Shown here: piece by piece, positions 8,492 through 23,081 of the stretch
Layout: the number at the start of each line of letters is the position of its first letter
Numbering within the stretch: the stretch's first letter is position 1
From: a virus
DNA length: 23,992 bases
Strand: one strand, 5' to 3'
IMG/VR virus record: IMGVR_UViG_3300028025_002682
Span: 1-23,992 of that record
Position numbers and translations under genes: made by a program
Notes under the pieces: generated by a model
Seen by the model: only the letters and a program-made list of their open reading frames with translations
Told to the model about the DNA's origin: nothing
The model's database searches: none

Positions 8492-8881
8492 ATGACTATA
8501 CAATCTAGCGGAGCGATATCAATTAGCGACGTAAACACCGAACTTACTCTGGCGAGTAACTATTCGAGTAGTTTATCGTTTCTAAATGGTTTCATTAAAA
8601 CTTCACGACCAGCATCTCCAAATTTACAGGCTTTTTATGGATTAACATATTTCCAAAAAAATAATGACGGAAATTGTTCCAACGGTAATTGTACAGCAAA
8701 CTGCAACTGTGGTAATATTCAATGTACTAATTGTACTATTTCTGGTCAGGTAAACTGTGTTAATTGCGATGCACAAAAATGGCTACAGGTTAATTGCAAC
8801 TGTGCTTGCACATATAACTGTAATACCTCTCAAGTTTCATATAACTGTGATTGTGCATGCGATTGCGCTTGTGGTGGATAA
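8492..8881 (+). CDS. Cys-rich protein with phage-structural N-terminus; candidate RiPP-type substrate
   Basis: A 129-residue protein in two parts. Residues 1-55 (beginning MTIQSSGAISISDVNTEL, later LNGFI and LQAFYGL) have no Cys and resemble the short N-terminal module of T4-like aquatic phage virion proteins that carry SGAISxSD. Residues 62-127 hold 17 Cys, nearly all preceded by Asn, Asp or Ala (for example NCNCAC, CDCACDCACGG). It ends GG. AGGA precedes the start. A radical SAM/SPASM enzyme gene begins 37 bases downstream. Inference: the Cys-rich tail is the target of thioether or other radical modification. Alternatives are a disulfide-rich or metal-binding tail tip, or a metallothionein-like protein. 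Confidence 0.8.
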   Translation: MTIQSSGAISISDVNTELTLASNYSSSLSFLNGFIKTSRPASPNLQAFYGLTYFQKNNDGNCSNGNCTANCNCGNIQCTNCTISGQVNCVNCDAQKWLQVNCNCACTYNCNTSQVSYNCDCACDCACGG

Positions 8882-8917: not shown

Positions 8918-10354
8918 ATGATTTTTGAAATACACGCTGAACGTAATAAAACTGATAAAAAGATCTTTTATTATGACAATGAAACAAACACTCTAAAAGA
9001 TGAGACTGGAATTGTTTATGAGTCTCAACAACAAGCTAATTCTAAGAATCAATCTCCAGTAGTGCCATTCTCAAAAGACGTTCCTCTTAAAAAGAGTAGG
9101 GCAGTAAAACTTGTGAAAATCCAAATGGGACTTTCTTGTAATTACGCATGTGATTACTGTTCTCAAAAATTCGTTGAACGACCAAAAGAAACCAATCCAA
9201 AAGATATTGAAAATTTTATGGAATTGTTTAATGAATTGGAATTTGACGAGCAACGAGGTTTAAAAGTAGAATTCTGGGGTGGCGAACCATTTGTTTATTG
9301 GAAAACATTTAAACCATTGGCAGAAGCCATTGCAAAAAAATTCTCAGACTGGAAACAGCCACCAAAGTTTTCAGTTATCACTAATGGTTCTCTTTTAACT
9401 GAGGATATTTGTGCTTGGTTATATGCCATGGGATTTAGTGTGGCGATTAGTCACGATGGTCCAGGACAACATGTTCGTGGACCAGATCCCTTTGACGATC
9501 CAGAAGTTAAGAAAACTGTTCTTGAGTTTTATGAGGTGATGTCCAAAGAAGGTAGAATGAGTTTCAACTCAATGTTGAATGCGAAGAATACTAGTCGCAA
9601 ACTAATTCATGATTGGTTTGTTAATTTCACACAAGACCCAATGGTTCCTCTCGGTGAAGGTGGATTCGTTGATGCTTATGATGACGATGGTCTTGCGAGT
9701 TCTCTTCAAACTAAACGAGATATGTTTGAGTTCCGTCGCAAAGCATTTGCTGATATATTTGCCAATGATGGTTATATTGGATTTGGCGGTATCATTCAAA
9801 AGATTGATGGGTTCACTAATGCTGTCCTAACTCACAAGCATGCAGATTATCTTGGACAAAAATGTGGAATGGATGAAGAAGATACTATTTCATTTGACCT
9901 CCGTGGTAATGTTATCACTTGTCAAAACGTAAGTGCCACTGAAATATCTAAAAATGGTGAATCCCATTTAGGTGGAAACCTTTCTGACTTTGATAATATT
10001 TCTATTAACACGGCAACTCACTGGCGCAATCGTCAAGAATGTTCAAAGTGCCCAGTGTTACATATATGTCAAGGTGCGTGTATGTTCTTAGAAGGTGATT
10101 ATTGGAAAGCATCATGTAATAATGCATACTCAGACGCTGTTCCACTATTTGCATTATCTCTTGAGAAAATCACAGGATACATTCCATATTTAATTAAAAA
10201 TACAGAGTTACCATTAGAGCGTCAAGACATTTGGGGTACTATGTATGAACACGTAGAAGATCCACCAAAACGTAAAATTATTCCTATTTTACAGTCACAA
10301 GAAAAAGCCATTTTAGATGGTATTGAAATATTTAAGGAGAAAACGTATGATTAG
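8918..10354 (+). CDS. Radical SAM/SPASM peptide-modifying enzyme
   Basis: A 478-residue protein. A 65-residue N-terminal extension precedes the radical SAM core. MGLSCNYACDYCSQK contains the CxxxCxxC cluster site (C74, C78, C81) and FWGGEP (119-124) is the SAM-binding motif. The C-terminal SPASM domain is complete: C316-x13-G-x4-C335, then CSKCPVLHICQGAC (C375, C378, C384, C388), then C400. This predicts three [4Fe-4S] clusters. SPASM enzymes modify peptides or proteins: sactipeptide/ranthipeptide thioethers, PqqE-type crosslinks or formylglycine. The natural partner is the Cys-rich protein immediately upstream. GAAGG lies seven bases before the ATG. Function is firm at class level; the reaction is unknown. 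Confidence 0.92.
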   Translation: MIFEIHAERNKTDKKIFYYDNETNTLKDETGIVYESQQQANSKNQSPVVPFSKDVPLKKSRAVKLVKIQMGLSCNYACDYCSQKFVERPKETNPKDIENFMELFNELEFDEQRGLKVEFWGGEPFVYWKTFKPLAEAIAKKFSDWKQPPKFSVITNGSLLTEDICAWLYAMGFSVAISHDGPGQHVRGPDPFDDPEVKKTVLEFYEVMSKEGRMSFNSMLNAKNTSRKLIHDWFVNFTQDPMVPLGEGGFVDAYDDDGLASSLQTKRDMFEFRRKAFADIFANDGYIGFGGIIQKIDGFTNAVLTHKHADYLGQKCGMDEEDTISFDLRGNVITCQNVSATEISKNGESHLGGNLSDFDNISINTATHWRNRQECSKCPVLHICQGACMFLEGDYWKASCNNAYSDAVPLFALSLEKITGYIPYLIKNTELPLERQDIWGTMYEHVEDPPKRKIIPILQSQEKAILDGIEIFKEKTYD

Positions 10355-10693: not shown

Positions 10694-11431
10694 TTGTTAA
10701 CCAAAACTGACGTGCTTGCTTATTGGTATAAGCAAAAGAAATTTGCCATTCCTTTATTAAATCCATCTCCAAATTCGTTTGACCACAAAAATAGTTTTAT
10801 TGTTCGTGGTTCCAAAAAGCGACTTGTTGTTCTATGTTCGCACCCACATACAGCCACAGAAATTTCTGGGTTTAATAATCAACCTAATATTAGTTTTTAT
10901 ACAGCTAGTATGCATAAAACATATCCAGAGTTTACTTTCGACGCAGATAAGCCATGGTTACTAAGATTAGACACTGCTGGTATTAATTGGGAAGTTAATT
11001 ATGAATTTCATGATCAAAAAGAACTTGAAGAAGTAGTATTAACCTTTAATAAAGGATGTGCGTTGGATCACATGTTCCAACGCATAGATAATAACAGAAT
11101 ATTATTCTTTAATAACTTTGATGCGTGTCAAGGAAGAATTTATCAGGCGAAGTTTCAACAAGCCACTGAAATTATTGAGAACAATATTCAAGATGATGAG
11201 TTTATGCAATACCCATTTATCATTAGTTACGCAAGAAGTGAAGATATTAGTTTACAAGAAGCTGCGAAGCGTGTCATTATCAAGAATAAGATATTAGAAG
11301 CTGGGCTGGCAGAAAGTGAAACATTAAGAATTAGAACAAAGAAAGCGATTCTAAATTCTTCTTCTCTACAAGAGTTACATGATGTATTCAACAAATTCGA
11401 CACTGAACTTTCAAAGTATGGTAATTTATGA
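10694..11431 (+). CDS. Hypothetical protein in the radical SAM cluster (245 aa)
   Basis: The frame opens with a TTG codon (10694) preceded by GGGGA, and no ATG lies near the front, so TTG initiation is the best reading. Residues 1-165 are mixed alpha/beta with several aromatic and His residues (LCSHPHTATE, FFNNFDACQG). Residues 170-245 are helical (YARSEDISLQEAAKRVIIKN, KKAILNSSSLQELHDVFNKF) and resemble helical tails seen in some phage structural proteins. No catalytic motif is recognised. It overlaps the asparagine-synthetase-like gene by four bases, so it belongs to the same unit. Confidence 0.6.
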   Translation: MLTKTDVLAYWYKQKKFAIPLLNPSPNSFDHKNSFIVRGSKKRLVVLCSHPHTATEISGFNNQPNISFYTASMHKTYPEFTFDADKPWLLRLDTAGINWEVNYEFHDQKELEEVVLTFNKGCALDHMFQRIDNNRILFFNNFDACQGRIYQAKFQQATEIIENNIQDDEFMQYPFIISYARSEDISLQEAAKRVIIKNKILEAGLAESETLRIRTKKAILNSSSLQELHDVFNKFDTELSKYGNL

Positions 11432-12546
11432 TCTATTATAATAGTTATGACATTTTTAATAATCCTGTGTATCACAGTGATTTGGAAAAGGTTCCTGGTG
11501 GTCGGGAATTTTCAACTCTATTTAAAATGTTTAGTCAAAACATCACATTCTTAGATAGAACGAATACAATTAGTATTCCGCTAAACATGACAACCCCAGA
11601 TTTTTTAAAGATGCCTTCAATGGATATGTTCACACATAAATCTTTTGAAGAAATCTGCGATGAACGTGCCAGACAATTATTGGATCATGCAGCAAAAACT
11701 AACAGAACCATTACTGTTATGTATAGTGGTGGTATTGACTCAACATTAATTCTATGTTCGTTTCTTAAAAACGCTAAGCCTGAAGAGCTAAAGAATATAA
11801 TTGTTTTACTATCAGAAAAAAGTATTCTTGAAAATCCTGTTTTCTACCACCAATTTATCATAAAACATTTTAAATGTGATTCTAGCTACAAGTTCCCTGC
11901 TTACATGGGTAATGATAAAATCTTATTTGTTACTGGTGAAAATGCTGACCAATTATTTGGTTCACAAGTGACTGGTGGTCTTGTTACTTTTGCTGGATAT
12001 GATTCTTTATTGTCTCCTATTGAGCAGATGGAAGGTACTCTTATAGACTTCTTTATCGAAGGGTCGCCAACATTTTATAAACCATATATCGCTCCAGCAT
12101 ATCATATACTAAAACGTGTTACTGATGCTGCACCGATTAAAATTGATAACGTGTATAAATTCCTTTGGTGGATTAATTTCGCTATGAAGTGGCAATCTGT
12201 TTATGTTCGTATTATGCCATATTCTTGGAATAGAGATAATATTAAATTTGAAGAAAACTACACAACATTTTATTCCCCTGCGCAATTCCAACTGTGGTCA
12301 ATGCACAACTCAGATAAATTAATAGGTGATTCTCCAGAAACATTTAAGTTTATTCAAAAGAAATATATACTTGATGTCAATGGTGATGCTGGATATTTAA
12401 AGAAGTTAAAAATGGGTAGTTTGGCAAGCATGGTTCAACGAAAGGAAAACTGTTTCTTTATTGACGATAAACTCAAGTATCATGACACCTTTCCCGCAGA
12501 AGAATATTATAACTATAATAATGATTTTGTTGGGATGTTAAAATAA
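11428..12546 (+). CDS. Asparagine-synthetase-like PP-loop enzyme without glutaminase domain
   Basis: A 372-residue protein. The PP-loop SGGIDST (100-106) binds ATP, and GENADQLFG (170-178) matches the GEGADELFGGY motif of asparagine synthetase. There is no N-terminal Cys2 and no class II glutaminase domain; residues 1-90 are instead a short unrelated region. Such stand-alone synthetase domains adenylate a carboxylate and form an amide, as in lasso-peptide cyclases and beta-lactam synthetases. With a radical SAM enzyme and a possible peptide substrate upstream, an amide-forming step on that substrate is a reasonable inference. A free-ammonia asparagine synthetase is the alternative. Confidence 0.8.
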   Translation: MIYYNSYDIFNNPVYHSDLEKVPGGREFSTLFKMFSQNITFLDRTNTISIPLNMTTPDFLKMPSMDMFTHKSFEEICDERARQLLDHAAKTNRTITVMYSGGIDSTLILCSFLKNAKPEELKNIIVLLSEKSILENPVFYHQFIIKHFKCDSSYKFPAYMGNDKILFVTGENADQLFGSQVTGGLVTFAGYDSLLSPIEQMEGTLIDFFIEGSPTFYKPYIAPAYHILKRVTDAAPIKIDNVYKFLWWINFAMKWQSVYVRIMPYSWNRDNIKFEENYTTFYSPAQFQLWSMHNSDKLIGDSPETFKFIQKKYILDVNGDAGYLKKLKMGSLASMVQRKENCFFIDDKLKYHDTFPAEEYYNYNNDFVGMLK

Positions 12547-12567: not shown

Positions 12568-13245
12568 ATGAAAATTTACTCCAAAGAAACTAAATCGGCT
12601 CTTGACTATACGGATAGTATGTATCCGTCATCAGCAGCATTGTTTGATGCAACTGATAATAAAGATCAGGGGTTTACATACACCAATGAGTACTCAACGA
12701 TTTATGGGTATGTTTTATCAGGTGAGGTTAAGTTACCGAATGGAATGACTGCTTATGAAGGTCAATATTTTTGTTATTGGTCTTGGGGTTGTGATGAGAT
12801 TCATTACACAGGACAAGTTGTAATAATCACCAGAATAGGATTTCGTGGACAGAACTCAGTTGGTGGTCCATTAGAGAACTCAGGAAGATTATGTTACATT
12901 GATGGATGTAGCGATACACTATTAATCTATCCTCCACGTCTTGGCGATCCGACATTAAATGCATTATATTTTCCAGCAAACGTAAACCAAACCTATCACA
13001 TTCACCCAAGTATTCGTCTTGGTGTAGTTGCTTCAGGTTCAGGGTTCGCTTGCTTAAAAAATTCTGATGGTACAGAAACACAAATTGAATTGAACAAAGG
13101 TACAGTCTGGTGTATTGAAGAAAGAGAAATGCATAGGTTCATCACAAAAGACGAAGGTATGGTTGTTATTGCATTCCATCCAGATGGAGATTGGGGACCA
13201 ACAGATCATAATCACACAATGCTTAACAGGACTTACATAAAGTAA
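12568..13245 (+). CDS. Bicupin-like protein
   Basis: A 225-residue protein with two cupin-like halves. The N-terminal half (about 43-95, with YGYVLSGEVKLPNG and GQYFCYW) lacks metal His. The C-terminal half (about 140-205) has HIHPSIRLG (H144, H146) and EREMHRF (H189), the usual cupin metal ligands, then FHPDGDWGPTDHNHTML (H204 onward). One active and one structural cupin is common in small oxygenases and isomerases. It closes the radical SAM cluster, 21 bases after the synthetase-like gene, with only a weak ribosome-binding site. A role as an oxygenase on the same peptide is possible; a sugar-binding or tail role is the alternative. Confidence 0.7.
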   Translation: MKIYSKETKSALDYTDSMYPSSAALFDATDNKDQGFTYTNEYSTIYGYVLSGEVKLPNGMTAYEGQYFCYWSWGCDEIHYTGQVVIITRIGFRGQNSVGGPLENSGRLCYIDGCSDTLLIYPPRLGDPTLNALYFPANVNQTYHIHPSIRLGVVASGSGFACLKNSDGTETQIELNKGTVWCIEEREMHRFITKDEGMVVIAFHPDGDWGPTDHNHTMLNRTYIK

Positions 13246-13247
13246 GT

Positions 13248-13282
13248 TTGTCTTGCAATCAATTGTAATGTATAATTGATGT
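13248..13282 (+). promoter_or_regulatory. Promoter of the tmRNA gene
   Basis: TTGTCT at 13248-13253, a 17-bp spacer beginning TGCAA and ending G, and TATAAT at 13271-13276. Predicted +1 is near 13283, at the front of the acceptor piece. It starts two bases after the cupin stop codon. There is no room for a riboswitch between promoter and RNA. Confidence 0.85.
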
Positions 13283-13346
13283 ATTGCTGTATGAAGCAAA
13301 GAGAAAGGTGTTCTGGACGAGGGTTCGATTCCCTCCACCTCCACCA
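13283..13346 (+). ncRNA. ssrA: Two-piece tmRNA, acceptor piece
   Basis: About 64 bases ending in the tRNA-like acceptor of tmRNA. The T arm is GAGGG (13319-13323), loop TTCGATT (13324-13330) and CCCTC (13331-13335). CACCTCC (13336-13342) then pairs with GGGGGTG of the coding piece, and ACCA (13343-13346) is encoded. A hairpin TTGCT/AGCAA (13284-13299) sits at the 5' end. G3 of the coding piece faces U in this strand, the G-U pair recognised by alanyl-tRNA synthetase. The acceptor half lies before the coding half, the order of circularly permuted tmRNA genes in alphaproteobacteria and some other lineages. Processing ends are inferred. Confidence 0.9.
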
Positions 13347-13403
13347 AAAGTGCTAGCAGAAGATAAAGTGCTACAGTCTGTTAAGAGACAGACCACTTCT
13401 GAT
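13347..13403 (+). other. tmRNA intervening segment (removed by processing)
   Basis: This stretch lies between the acceptor CCA and the first G of the coding piece. It can fold into a long hairpin: CAGA/TCTG and AGTG/CACT outer helices around GTCTGT/ACAGAC (loop TAAGAG). The repeat AAAGTGCTA occurs twice. In permuted tmRNA precursors such a segment links the two ends of the acceptor stem and is excised. Confidence 0.75.
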
Positions 13404-13630
13404 GGGGGTGACTAGGTTTCGACAGGGCGACGAGTAAACAAGTGGACAGCACGGGAATGTGAAACCCGTTAGGATTGAGGAAAGTACAGTAATGTGGTGG
13501 CAACATCATATCAGTATCTCTCGGTCGAAGAAGCAAAAAACGTAAACGCAAACGACGCACAGTTCGCATTAGCAGCCTAAACACTGCTTAGGGTTTCGGT
13601 AGCTTTCCTCGTAACAGAATAAGCTACCAT
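13404..13630 (+). ncRNA. ssrA: Two-piece tmRNA, coding piece (tag ANDAQFALAA)
   Basis: It begins GGGGGTG (13404-13410), which completes a 7-bp acceptor stem with the acceptor piece. The tmRNA D-loop hallmark GGTTTCGACAGGG follows. A pseudoknot-type stem ACGGG/CCCGT lies just downstream. The tag frame is GCA at 13548 through TAA at 13578-13580, giving ANDAQFALAA; a longer reading from GCA at 13533 would add AKNVN. The ALAA end is a ClpXP/ClpAP degron. tmRNA rescues stalled ribosomes and tags the unfinished proteins. The 3' end is uncertain, between about 13590 and 13630. Phage tmRNA genes of two-piece form are known from related aquatic myophages. Confidence 0.92.
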
Positions 13631-13634
13631 TTTT
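13598..13634 (+). terminator. Rho-independent terminator after the tmRNA
   Basis: GGTAGCTT (13598-13605) pairs with AAGCTACC (13621-13628) over a 15-base loop, followed by ATTTTT. It could also form the 3' structure of the tmRNA precursor before trimming. Confidence 0.75.
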
Positions 13635-13655
13635 ATAATTTAAAAGGATGTTACT

Positions 13656-13916
13656 ATGGAAGTTAAACCATTGAAAGACAAGGTTCTTGTTGCTGAGAAC
13701 AAAAGAGAAAATACAACAGAATCTGGTATCATCCTTGAAGGTGCTGGGTTTGATCAGTCAAAGACTGGAACAGTTCTTGCCATTGGACCAGACGTTACAG
13801 AAGTTAAAGTTGGTGATGTGATTTATCTTGAGTGGAACAAAGCACAAGTTGTTAAGATTGGTGATGCTCAACGTGTAATGATTAAAGAAGAAAACATTGT
13901 CGCTGTAGTTGAGTGA
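13656..13916 (+). CDS. groES: GroES-like co-chaperonin
   Basis: An 86-residue protein matching Hsp10/GroES along its length: MEVKPLKDKVLVAE at the start, the mobile-loop region ENTTESGIIL (about 18-27) with the hydrophobic IIL that contacts GroEL, then GTVLAIGPD (38-46), VKVGDVIYL (51-59) and a C-terminal strand KEENIVAVVE. It is about ten residues shorter than bacterial GroES. Phage co-chaperonins such as T4 gp31 replace host GroES to fold the major capsid protein. An AAAGGATG ribosome-binding site precedes the start. It sits directly after the tmRNA terminator. Confidence 0.88.
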   Translation: MEVKPLKDKVLVAENKRENTTESGIILEGAGFDQSKTGTVLAIGPDVTEVKVGDVIYLEWNKAQVVKIGDAQRVMIKEENIVAVVE

Positions 13917-20568: not shown

Positions 20569-20593
20569 GGGGAGCCGATGGCTCCCCTTTTTT
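20569..20593 (+). terminator. Strong rho-independent terminator of the rightward genes
   Basis: GGGGAGCC (20569-20576), loop GAT, GGCTCCCC (20580-20587), then TTTTTT. It lies in the 55-base gap between two convergent genes; its U-run overlaps the stop codon of the minus-strand gene. On the minus strand the hairpin is not followed by a U-run. Confidence 0.92.
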
Positions 20594-22175
20594 ATGCTCG
20601 TGCGTATCTGCTTCCGACGAACTTTGACATCGAAGACTCTTGATTGCGAATCGGAGACTTGATTACTTGAGATGTGTTGTTGTTTGTTGTGACTGGAGCA
20701 TTAACAACAGCAGTATTACCACCACCAGTACCAGTGTTTGCAGCTTCTGCGTCAGCGTTTTCTTTAGACGCACCAGCCACTGCAGCAGCAGTTGTTGGAG
20801 GAGGTGCGGTTGGTGCTGAAGAAGATGAATCTGATTTAAATGGGTAGAATGGACCAATTGCTACTTCTTTATTGATGACTGGAATCTTGAATTTGATTTC
20901 TGGGATACCAATGCTTGAAATCATTGCCATGAAATCATCTTTGATGCCAGTGATGAATTTAACGAATGGCTGAATGAGATTCTCACTTGTCCATGTAGCA
21001 AAGTCACCAATAACTTCTTTAATCTTTTCTTTGTCAAACAATCCAAATGTTAAGAAGTCTACGATACCAGCTAAACCAGCGATAAGTGCTTTACCGATAT
21101 CTCCGCTCTTAGCGAACTCATCAAACGCATCAGTTATTCCTGAGAAGAGAGCACCAACTATAGCACCAATAACAAATATCTTACCCAATGCTTTTAGTAG
21201 ATTCTTAGGACTGAATAATGTCTTAAACGCTGTCATTAGTCCTGTTCCCAAGAAATCAAAGATGCCATCTAATAATCCACCCTTTGATGCAGGTTCTACA
21301 GGTTTAGCCTTTGGTGCACCCTCGCCAGAACCACGAGTGTTTTCTTCAATCTTAGTTAAGAGAGAAGTTTGTTCACCCATTAGCTTAGCATTTTCTGATG
21401 CTTCTTCTAACTGCTCTCCCTCTGATGCAAATAATTGAGTTGGAGTTTTAGCCACTGCTTCTGCAGCAGGAGAAACCATTGCTGCTTTACCACCAGTCTT
21501 TAGTGCAGCACCCTTATCGAATTGAGCATACTCTTGTGTTAGTGCAGCTTTCTTTGCAAACAATGCAGCAGTTTCTGGTTTTGATTTAGCCAATTCTTCA
21601 TCAGTAAATTTACCACCAGTAGCTTGTCTTATCTTTTGAATACTTTCTTCAACCTTTGAAGATTCTTTTTTAGCTGCATAAGCACCTTCAAACTTTTTAT
21701 TAAGATCACCCTCAGCACCAAGTGCTTTCTGTTCCTTAATAAACTTATCTTTTTCTAATCGTTTGTTATTAATACCGAATACGTTAGTAGACTCGAGAAA
21801 CTTTGTTTTGATATTTTCACCAGAGAACTTACCAGCAAGATTAGACATAATCCCCTTACCTTTTTCCAAAGGAGACTTAAATGTCTTCATACTGTCCATC
21901 AGCTTTTGAATATCTTCTTGTGCTTTCTTTCTGTCCGATTCAGAATCTTCAAGAACTATGAGTTGTTTCTTTTGAACGTCTAATGACTCTTGTTCTAGTT
22001 TTAATCGTTCATCGTCTTTAATGTTTGCTGTAGTTTCCATTAAAGACTTTATTGTCGCAAGATGACCAACAGATTGTTGTTGTAAAACTATCAGTTGTGA
22101 TAATCCCTCTTCATTAGATCTTGTTTGTTGTCTAATGCTCGAATTAACAGAGCTGTTACCTGTTCTTTTTGCCAT
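20592..22175 (-). CDS. Tape-measure-like tail/baseplate hub protein
   Basis: A 527-residue protein. Long helical, charged N-terminal part (about 20-280) with DERLKLEQESLDVQKKQLIV and similar heptads. A hydrophobic middle follows (FLGTGLMTAFKTLFSP, FVIGAIVGALFSGI, ALIAGLAGIVDFLTFGLF; about 305-380). The C-terminus is Ala/Thr/Asn-rich and ends in IKSPIRNQESSMSKFVGSRY, an ending I associate with T4-like tail proteins. Helical rods with a central membrane-like segment are typical of tape measures. It follows the tail-chaperone-like genes, the classical position. It could instead be another hub protein, such as a gp29 analogue. Confidence 0.65.
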   Translation of the reverse strand: MAKRTGNSSVNSSIRQQTRSNEEGLSQLIVLQQQSVGHLATIKSLMETTANIKDDERLKLEQESLDVQKKQLIVLEDSESDRKKAQEDIQKLMDSMKTFKSPLEKGKGIMSNLAGKFSGENIKTKFLESTNVFGINNKRLEKDKFIKEQKALGAEGDLNKKFEGAYAAKKESSKVEESIQKIRQATGGKFTDEELAKSKPETAALFAKKAALTQEYAQFDKGAALKTGGKAAMVSPAAEAVAKTPTQLFASEGEQLEEASENAKLMGEQTSLLTKIEENTRGSGEGAPKAKPVEPASKGGLLDGIFDFLGTGLMTAFKTLFSPKNLLKALGKIFVIGAIVGALFSGITDAFDEFAKSGDIGKALIAGLAGIVDFLTFGLFDKEKIKEVIGDFATWTSENLIQPFVKFITGIKDDFMAMISSIGIPEIKFKIPVINKEVAIGPFYPFKSDSSSSAPTAPPPTTAAAVAGASKENADAEAANTGTGGGNTAVVNAPVTTNNNTSQVIKSPIRNQESSMSKFVGSRYARA

Positions 22176-22176
22176 A

Positions 22177-22419
22177 TTACTTTCTCTTAGATTCTATTCT
22201 TTTCTTTTCTTCTTCTAGATACTCAATTAACATAAAGACATACACTTCTCTTTCAAACGGAATCATTTCCTCAAGTTCCGCAAGCGAGTATTTGTGGTAC
22301 TGCATCAGAGCGAAATTCATTTTATAGTAATTCGCTAAACTTTCATGACAAAGGTTAATTAAAAAAAACTTTGCATGCCCTCCAGCATCTTCCTGTGTTG
22401 CTTTTGGCATACAGGGCAA
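22177..22419 (-). CDS. Downstream tail-chaperone ORF, probably expressed by -1 frameshift
   Basis: An 80-codon frame whose first 20 codons overlap the gp26-like gene. It lacks a ribosome-binding site at either ATG (22419 or that of MNFALMQYHKYS). The unique part (ANYYKMNFALMQYHKYSLAE, then MIPFEREVYVFMLIEYLEEE) has the helix-rich pattern of the T half of tail assembly chaperones and of T4-like gp51-type proteins. The frame is -1 relative to gp26, and a U8 run lies at the junction (22361-22368). The likely product is a gp26-ORF fusion. It ends one base before the tape-measure start region. Confidence 0.65.
   Translation of the reverse strand: MPCMPKATQEDAGGHAKFFLINLCHESLANYYKMNFALMQYHKYSLAELEEMIPFEREVYVFMLIEYLEEEKKRIESKRK
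22359..22368 (-). promoter_or_regulatory. Probable -1 ribosomal frameshift site (U_UUU_UUU before UAA)
   Basis: Read on the minus strand, the gp26-like frame ends AGT TTT TTT TAA. The heptamer U_UUU_UUU (22368-22362) is a perfect X_XXY_YYZ slippery site, directly before the stop codon. A small hairpin (CTTT/AAAG) starts a few bases downstream, and a 6-bp AGCGAA/TTCGCT stem lies about 25 bases on. Slippage by -1 would extend the protein through the 22177 frame. Confidence 0.65.
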
Positions 22420-23081
22420 GTATAGTCAATTTCTTTCTTAATTCTTGGCATAGTTGCAAAGAAGTTCTGGATTTTAATAAATTGATCAGATGTTAAGTTA
22501 TTTAAAAACTGTAACACCTCTTCATGCTTTTGTTCTTTGGTGTAGAAGATTTCTTCACCTTGATAGATGTAGTCAATCGACAGAGCAACTACATCAAAAA
22601 TTTTATCGATATTACCTTCATCTAAAGTTTCTAACTTTTTCATAATATCCATAGTTGGATACTTCATCATAACACCGACATCACCGAACAAGTCAATCTT
22701 GTTTGTATGTTCAGGATCTTTTTCTACCTGAAGCGTAGTTAAGTCAATAGAAACTTTAACTCTAGCCTTTTCGTTATCTTCACCATGGTCATTATCACAT
22801 GGGAAGATTAATTCAATAATTTCACCAACAGACTTAGCACGGATTTGAGTAAACATATACTCTAAATCAAATGTCGCTAGTTTATTAACATCAATGCTAT
22901 CTAAAACGCAAGTTTTAATTACACTCTTAAGAGTATCAACCATAACAAGCAAGTCTTCACTTTGTTGTGCAATTAATAATGCCTTTTCCTCTTTAACGAG
23001 GAATGGTCTAAACTTAACACTCACTCCACTCGAAGGCACGACCATATTATAGGTCGGTGTATTCATCATCGGTAATGCCAT
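22359..23081 (-). CDS. gp26: gp26-like baseplate hub/tail chaperone protein
   Basis: A 240-residue protein. MALPMMNTPTYNMVVPSSG, KFRPFLVKEEKALLIAQQ and TFDLEYMFTQIRAKSVGEI match the T4-like gp26 family. The C-terminus holds CPVCQKQH, one CxxC unit of a possible zinc site. T4 gp26 acts in baseplate hub assembly. The gene sits directly before the frameshift ORF and the tape-measure-like gene, the place held by tail assembly chaperones in other long-tailed phages. An AAAGGAG site precedes the start. Confidence 0.75.
   Translation of the reverse strand: MALPMMNTPTYNMVVPSSGVSVKFRPFLVKEEKALLIAQQSEDLLVMVDTLKSVIKTCVLDSIDVNKLATFDLEYMFTQIRAKSVGEIIELIFPCDNDHGEDNEKARVKVSIDLTTLQVEKDPEHTNKIDLFGDVGVMMKYPTMDIMKKLETLDEGNIDKIFDVVALSIDYIYQGEEIFYTKEQKHEEVLQFLNNLTSDQFIKIQNFFATMPRIKKEIDYTCPVCQKQHRKMLEGMQSFF

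Follow-up and report, generated by a model that had tools for sequence, protein, structure and literature searches.

A probable -1 frameshift joins gp26-like and gp51-like tail chaperone parts at a conserved slippery heptamer

In the phage lambda gene pair G/GT, the slippery heptamer is G_GGA_AAG. The tail assembly chaperone genes of T4-like phages were reportedly the subject of a study by Vladimirov, Gautam and Davidson in 2022 (Virology 566:9-15). According to two papers that cite it, some T4-like phages carry a short gene together with a fused long gene (PRFect, PMC10885494), and chaperone genes of T4-like phages are known to have poly-T slippery signals (phage Adele paper, PMC12846349); both features recur in the family described here. 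As given in sections of a review (PMC5009743), the lambda pair consists of a short chaperone and a C-terminally extended, frameshifted form, with the slip near the 3' end of the short gene, and a tape-measure-sized ORF comes next. In the TAC of Vandenendeviridae and Andersonviridae, as outlined in part of the phage Adele paper, the short chaperone gene has a conserved GTTTTT close to its end, at which a -1 frameshift occurs (PMC12846349). Finally, gp26 and gp51 are listed as hub assembly chaperones in an excerpt that describes gp51 as essential and its function as unknown (PMC3004832). By all signs, and as far as these partial sources reach, a tail-chaperone reading of T4-like gp26/gp51 is already in print. 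Among the open papers that our searches listed, we found no description of this frameshift in the gp26/gp51 genes of cyanophages, and we do not claim that it is absent from print (cf. Vladimirov et al. 2022).

The DNA analysed here (the window) is a 23,992-base IMG/VR virus record, a fragment rather than a whole genome. The arrangement on its minus strand resembles lambda G/GT in its predicted short and C-terminally extended products, in the place of the slip and in the ORF that follows; by contrast, the heptamer differs from that of lambda, being of the form U_UUU_UUN and accompanied by a Shine-Dalgarno (SD)-like element, and the likeness is one of arrangement rather than of compared sequences. 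The locus also resembles the TAC of Vandenendeviridae and Andersonviridae in having a probable -1 slip shortly before the short gene ends, although those are other phage families and were compared by description only.

The junction and its predicted products

The gp26-like gene (22359-23081, minus strand) encodes a short product of 240 aa and ends, read on the minus strand, in CTG GAG GGC ATG CAA AGT TTT TTT TAA, in which the T run is 8 long. As the first-pass annotation had described, a perfect slippery heptamer, U_UUU_UUU (22368-22362, minus strand; Phe-Phe codons in the 0 frame), abuts the stop codon UAA (22361-22359, minus strand), which varies between UAA, UAG and UGA among relatives. From 22362, the -1 frame continues for 61 codons (LINLCHES...ESKRK) to a stop codon at 22179-22177; the predicted fusion reads ...QSFF-LINLCHESLANYYK at the junction and has 301 aa in all, i.e. 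the 240-aa gp26-like part followed by this extension (22177-22362, minus strand). The extension had been proposed to be protein-like over about 60 codons, and it matches phrog_634 (baseplate hub assembly catalyst, gp51) at E 2.9e-26; it also has a weaker match to positions 227-276 of phrog_150. The interval originally assigned to it, 22177-22419, proved to be the TTG-to-stop span of an ORF finder: 22419-22363 overlaps gp26 coding, and 22362-22177 is the part that would be read after a slip. Similarly, the assertion that this frame has no usable start is correct for the post-slip part, while the overlap contains an in-frame TTG at 22419 and an in-frame ATG at 22410, neither of which is conserved.

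The 240-aa product matches PF12322 (T4_baseplate) over residues 9-240 (E 4.6e-57; 193.7 bits with a cut-off of 24.5) and phrog_150 (baseplate hub) at E 1e-63. In structural comparisons of an AlphaFold (AF2) model of this protein, built on a 36-sequence alignment (pLDDT 87.7), the best PDB row was the HK97 tail assembly chaperone 2ob9 (Z 7.6, 84 residues aligned, rmsd 4.1), followed by YqbN (3klu, Z 7.3), which we take to be a tail assembly chaperone of the same kind, and then by rows at 4.5 and 2.8. Foldseek also ranked 2ob9 first (E 0.7, probability 0.82). No credible relative emerged when PDB sequences were searched by profile; the best rows were MtrB chains (E 0.0014), which look like chance. 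In total, the model supports a tail-assembly-chaperone fold (TAC-N, lambda gpG-like) in the N-terminal part of the short product, the likeness being limited to residues 1-87 (the N-terminal ~85) and Z staying under 8.

The next ORF (20592-22175, minus strand) encodes 527 aa, and its ATG at 22175 lies 1 nt beyond the extension stop. The first-pass annotation called this gene tape-measure-like; its position, its length and two hydrophobic segments make it a candidate tape measure protein, but it had no match in Pfam, PHROGs or phage records, and comparisons with the HTVC008M tape measure (E 0.10) and T4 gp29 (E 0.20) lent no support.

The plus strand of the window carries further features. A permuted tmRNA (13239-13671) was recognised by Rfam RF04321 and RF01850 and by ARAGORN (tag ANDAQFALAA), and also fits the betaproteobacterial model; the related methylophage Melnitz has a two-piece tmRNA as well, according to part of its description (PMC9004378). 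At 8492-8881, an ORF of 129 aa, the C-terminal half of which is very rich in Cys and Asn, is followed by a radical SAM protein with a CNYACDYC motif (8918-10354; PF04055, E 2.3e-9), and the two look like a candidate phage-borne pair for making a modified peptide. Moreover, a 372-aa ORF (11428-12546) near a cupin-like ORF (12568-13245) had no Pfam match at E 0.01 and contains an asparagine-synthetase/PP-loop-like SGGIDS motif.

Conservation of the site and rival explanations

Relatives were gathered by gp26, independently by the extension, and from named phages. With profiles of the two parts, gp26 was found in 343 loci; 332 of them had the extension as well, and it occupies the -1 frame in 331 of the 332. 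Among the 11 loci with gp26 only, six (L069, L071, L074, L075, L312 and L331) seem, from their length, to be cut off behind the match, and in L088, L089, L092, L093 and L099 a -1 extension is visible by eye under the profile threshold. The one locus with the extension outside the -1 frame (L056, around 3220) has lost the beginning of the extension immediately behind U8, possibly through an artefact of assembly, and forms a cluster of its own in the clustering described below.

Collapsing identical 220-nt cores reduced the 332 two-part loci to 242 distinct loci, and U_UUU_UUN is present at the end of gp26 in 241 of these, Klebsiella phage 0507-KN2-1 (Ackermannviridae) being the sole exception. 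When 236 of the 241 loci with the site were clustered at 70% identity (five were left out owing to incomplete sequence), all 46 cluster representatives had U_UUU_UUN. In the rest of these gp26 ORFs, the motif was found in frame 16 times over a total of 54,583 codons. The second codon of the heptamer is UUC in 134 loci, UUU in 99, UUA in seven and UUG in one; by contrast, the first Phe codon is TTT in 241/241 loci, compared with a TTT share of 69% elsewhere in these ORFs, and the codon preceding it always ends in T. The 0-frame stop follows 0 or 1 codons past the heptamer in 230/241 loci, the set on which stop spacing and codon 1 of the extension were counted. The proposed frameshift is ordinary in kind and unusually well conserved.

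We next considered the extension itself. In the cluster that contains the window, the 76 members with a complete extension were compared with the window over extension codons 2-13, i.e. the stretch before the first Met in the window. In the -1 frame they had 303 synonymous and 167 non-synonymous differences, as opposed to 35/430 and 77/371 in the other two frames, giving a non-synonymous share of 36% versus 92% and 83%. Moreover, the His at extension codon 6 is nearly invariant when 13 diverse extensions are aligned. Between the point where the frame opens and codon 6, 118/241 loci have no ATG, GTG or TTG, and 159/241 have no ATG; any of the three codons occurs upstream in the open overlap in 22/241 distinct loci, and codon 1, at the stop overlap, is ATG in 12/230 loci. 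These comparisons support that the extension is translated and has no start of its own.

We therefore regard a -1 ribosomal frameshift that yields a tail assembly chaperone pair of the lambda G/GT type as very probable. The analogy with lambda drawn in the first-pass annotation is thus the best-supported reading, in view of the conserved heptamer, the nearly constant -1 frame, the lack of a conserved start and the chaperone-like N-terminal domain of gp26.

We consider each of two rivals improbable. The first is slippage of RNA polymerase on the T8 run, by which some mRNAs would gain or lose one U and be read as the fusion. A run of eight T is indeed present in the window and in 85 of the 241 loci; however, the run is seven long in 14 loci and six long in 142, as well as in 25/46 cluster representatives, and it reaches nine or more in none of the 241, while the relevant part of a review gives nine-A or nine-T runs for bacterial transcriptional slippage (PMC5009743). 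The homopolymer of about nine or more A or T, kept in relatives, that transcriptional slippage would call for was thus not found among these runs of six to eight. The U8 run had been expected by the first-pass annotation not to vary freely, and its length does vary, but U_UUU_UUN is always retained. Because the heptamer is kept while the homopolymer changes in length, slippage is more readily ascribed to the ribosome than to the polymerase.

The second rival, to which we assign an equally small probability, is a separate gp51 gene, translated from its own start or by re-initiation after the gp26 stop. In the first 20 annotated records examined, the extension is deposited as a separate CDS in ten and omitted from ten, and none joins the two parts; in some lineages, e.g. 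S-CRM01, nt-1 and RHph_N34, an ATG overlaps the stop, and the SD-like element might in principle hold ribosomes for a restart. However, the codon overlapping the stop in the cluster of the window is variable (ATT, ATA, GTA, GTT, GCA or ATG, with ATG in only 5/77), and some annotated gp51 starts, such as that of HTVC008M, sit within the conserved stretch. Because residues before any Met are conserved and a start codon is not kept, the extension does not appear to be an independent gene. Relatives with separate genes do exist, as the first-pass annotation had allowed for, in the duplicated copies of T4 and the stop-start overlap of Ackermannviridae, but these are lineage-specific replacements unlike the arrangement in the window.

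Finally, homopolymers are prone to sequencing error, and the idea that such an error, or one of assembly, had split one continuous gene has a negligible probability, because relatives, isolate genomes included, share the identical arrangement in 331/332 loci, even at sites with six T's.

The reading as a -1 ribosomal frameshift is also in line with the sequence upstream of the heptamer. In the window, GGAGGG (22378-22383, minus strand) lies 9 nt upstream of the heptamer and would form a duplex of -9.8 kcal/mol with the anti-SD. Pairing with the anti-SD of -6 kcal/mol or lower at spacings of 6-9 was found in 66-68% of the 241 loci versus 2.5% of control positions, and the Glu codon at the SD-like site is GAG in 160/210 cases versus a background of 28%. 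These 241-locus counts are dominated by two large clusters, and 21/46 cluster representatives reach -6 kcal/mol (19 with narrower spacing) versus 6.9% of controls; thus, the element is common, not universal. GGAGGG is likely a stimulator of the -1 slip. An upstream SD is a major feature of -1 frameshifting in E. coli dnaX, and SD stimulators occur in an estimated 56% of IS elements, according to sections of the same review (PMC5009743). The locus is like dnaX in this upstream SD; unlike it, dnaX has an A_AAA_AAG site and a downstream stem-loop, as that source describes (PMC5009743), whereas no conserved downstream RNA structure was found here (the window scored z 0.16 and the 46 clusters averaged -0.95, with 12/46 below -2).

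T4 and other lineages

T4 gp26 and gp51 each match PF12322 (8.8e-64 and 3.9e-52) and match one another by BLASTP (E 2e-6); phrog_634 and the extension profile, by contrast, are matched by gp51 but not by gp26. By these matches, the two proteins are paralogues, gp26 resembling the short form and gp51, with a gp26-like part plus the extension, resembling the long form. T4 gp26 ends in GLKEFFELL at the slip position. The T4 genes are divergent, with gp26 on the minus and gp51 on the plus strand; the usual description of gp26 and gp51 as separate proteins, which the first-pass annotation had cited, is right for T4, where a frameshift is not needed. Thus, T4 has two genes where this phage has one frameshifted gene. 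In a phrog_150 search of 22 phage genomes, T4 had two full-length copies of the gp26 family, whereas each of the remaining 21 had a single one, in several cases together with a short downstream piece, the extension; a weak second hit in ACG-2014d (E 6e-4, internal stops) was disregarded as chance. The window's 23,992-base fragment contains one copy.

The Straboviridae members Vibrio nt-1 and Aeromonas Asswx_1 keep U_UUU_UUC. Ackermannviridae (L089, L094, L099 and L345-L366) lack the slippery heptamer, yet their extension still occupies the -1 frame. The junction is UAAUG in Agtrevirus, Limestonevirus and the Vibrio members, UGAUC in Serratia KNP4, and an invariant AUUUAAUU in 18 Kuttervirus/Taipeivirus sequences (9 distinct), in which the first 11 extension codons have 16 synonymous and 0 non-synonymous differences. 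From these junction sequences, Ackermannviridae look as if they use coupled re-initiation at AUG, near-cognate AUU/AUC included; a possible alternative is an unrecognised -1 shift. We also considered a +5 hop across the stop from one AUU codon to another, and coupled re-initiation now looks simpler because AUG occupies the same place in Agtrevirus, Limestonevirus and the Vibrio members.

Tentatively, and at somewhat less than even probability, the gp26 family may have three interchangeable routes to the long form or extension: frameshift, duplication and stop-start overlap. On this joint reading, an SD-assisted -1 shift at U_UUU_UUN might serve the window, cyanophages, Vibrio nt-1, Aeromonas and rhizobial phages; T4 would have its short and fused long genes, and Ackermannviridae would use AUG and, in Kuttervirus/Taipeivirus and Serratia KNP4, apparently AUU or AUC, or else an unrecognised -1 event.

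Proposed mechanism and meaning

The assignment of the -1 products to a chaperone pair of the lambda G/GT type is made because the N-terminal domain of gp26 matches the HK97 chaperone and because the T4 gp26 and gp51 paralogues correspond to short and long forms. In the mechanism that we propose, most ribosomes would end at UAA and release the 240-aa short form, while a minority would slip back one base with Phe-tRNAs on U_UUU_UUU, probably assisted by pairing of the upstream GGAGGG with 16S rRNA. The slipped ribosomes would read 61 more codons, making a gp26-gp51 fusion of 301 aa. If lambda gpG/gpGT is a guide, many short copies may coat the tape measure protein and few long copies may recruit tail tube subunits. 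The signal and its conservation, the coding nature of the -1 frame, the homology of both parts and the chaperone-likeness of the gp26 model are what the comparisons show; the slippage itself and how often it occurs, the part played by GGAGGG, these binding partners and the role of the next ORF as the tape measure are what we infer.

The annotated gp51 CDSs of HTVC008M, P-HM2 and Melnitz (L001, L084 and L101) begin at codons inside the conserved extension. Because these annotated starts are internal, the deposited gp51 proteins of the three phages are probably truncated.

The general idea of such chaperones has been in print since 2022, so that what is gained here is chiefly how widely the site is conserved, together with the SD-like stimulator and the differences between lineages. 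Many records of cyanophages, pelagiphages and other T4-like phages list a 'baseplate hub subunit' and a 'baseplate hub assembly catalyst'; the evidence points to a single frameshifted chaperone gene behind both. If the reading of three routes is true, the gp26 family would be a natural experiment on the loss and replacement of frameshifting.
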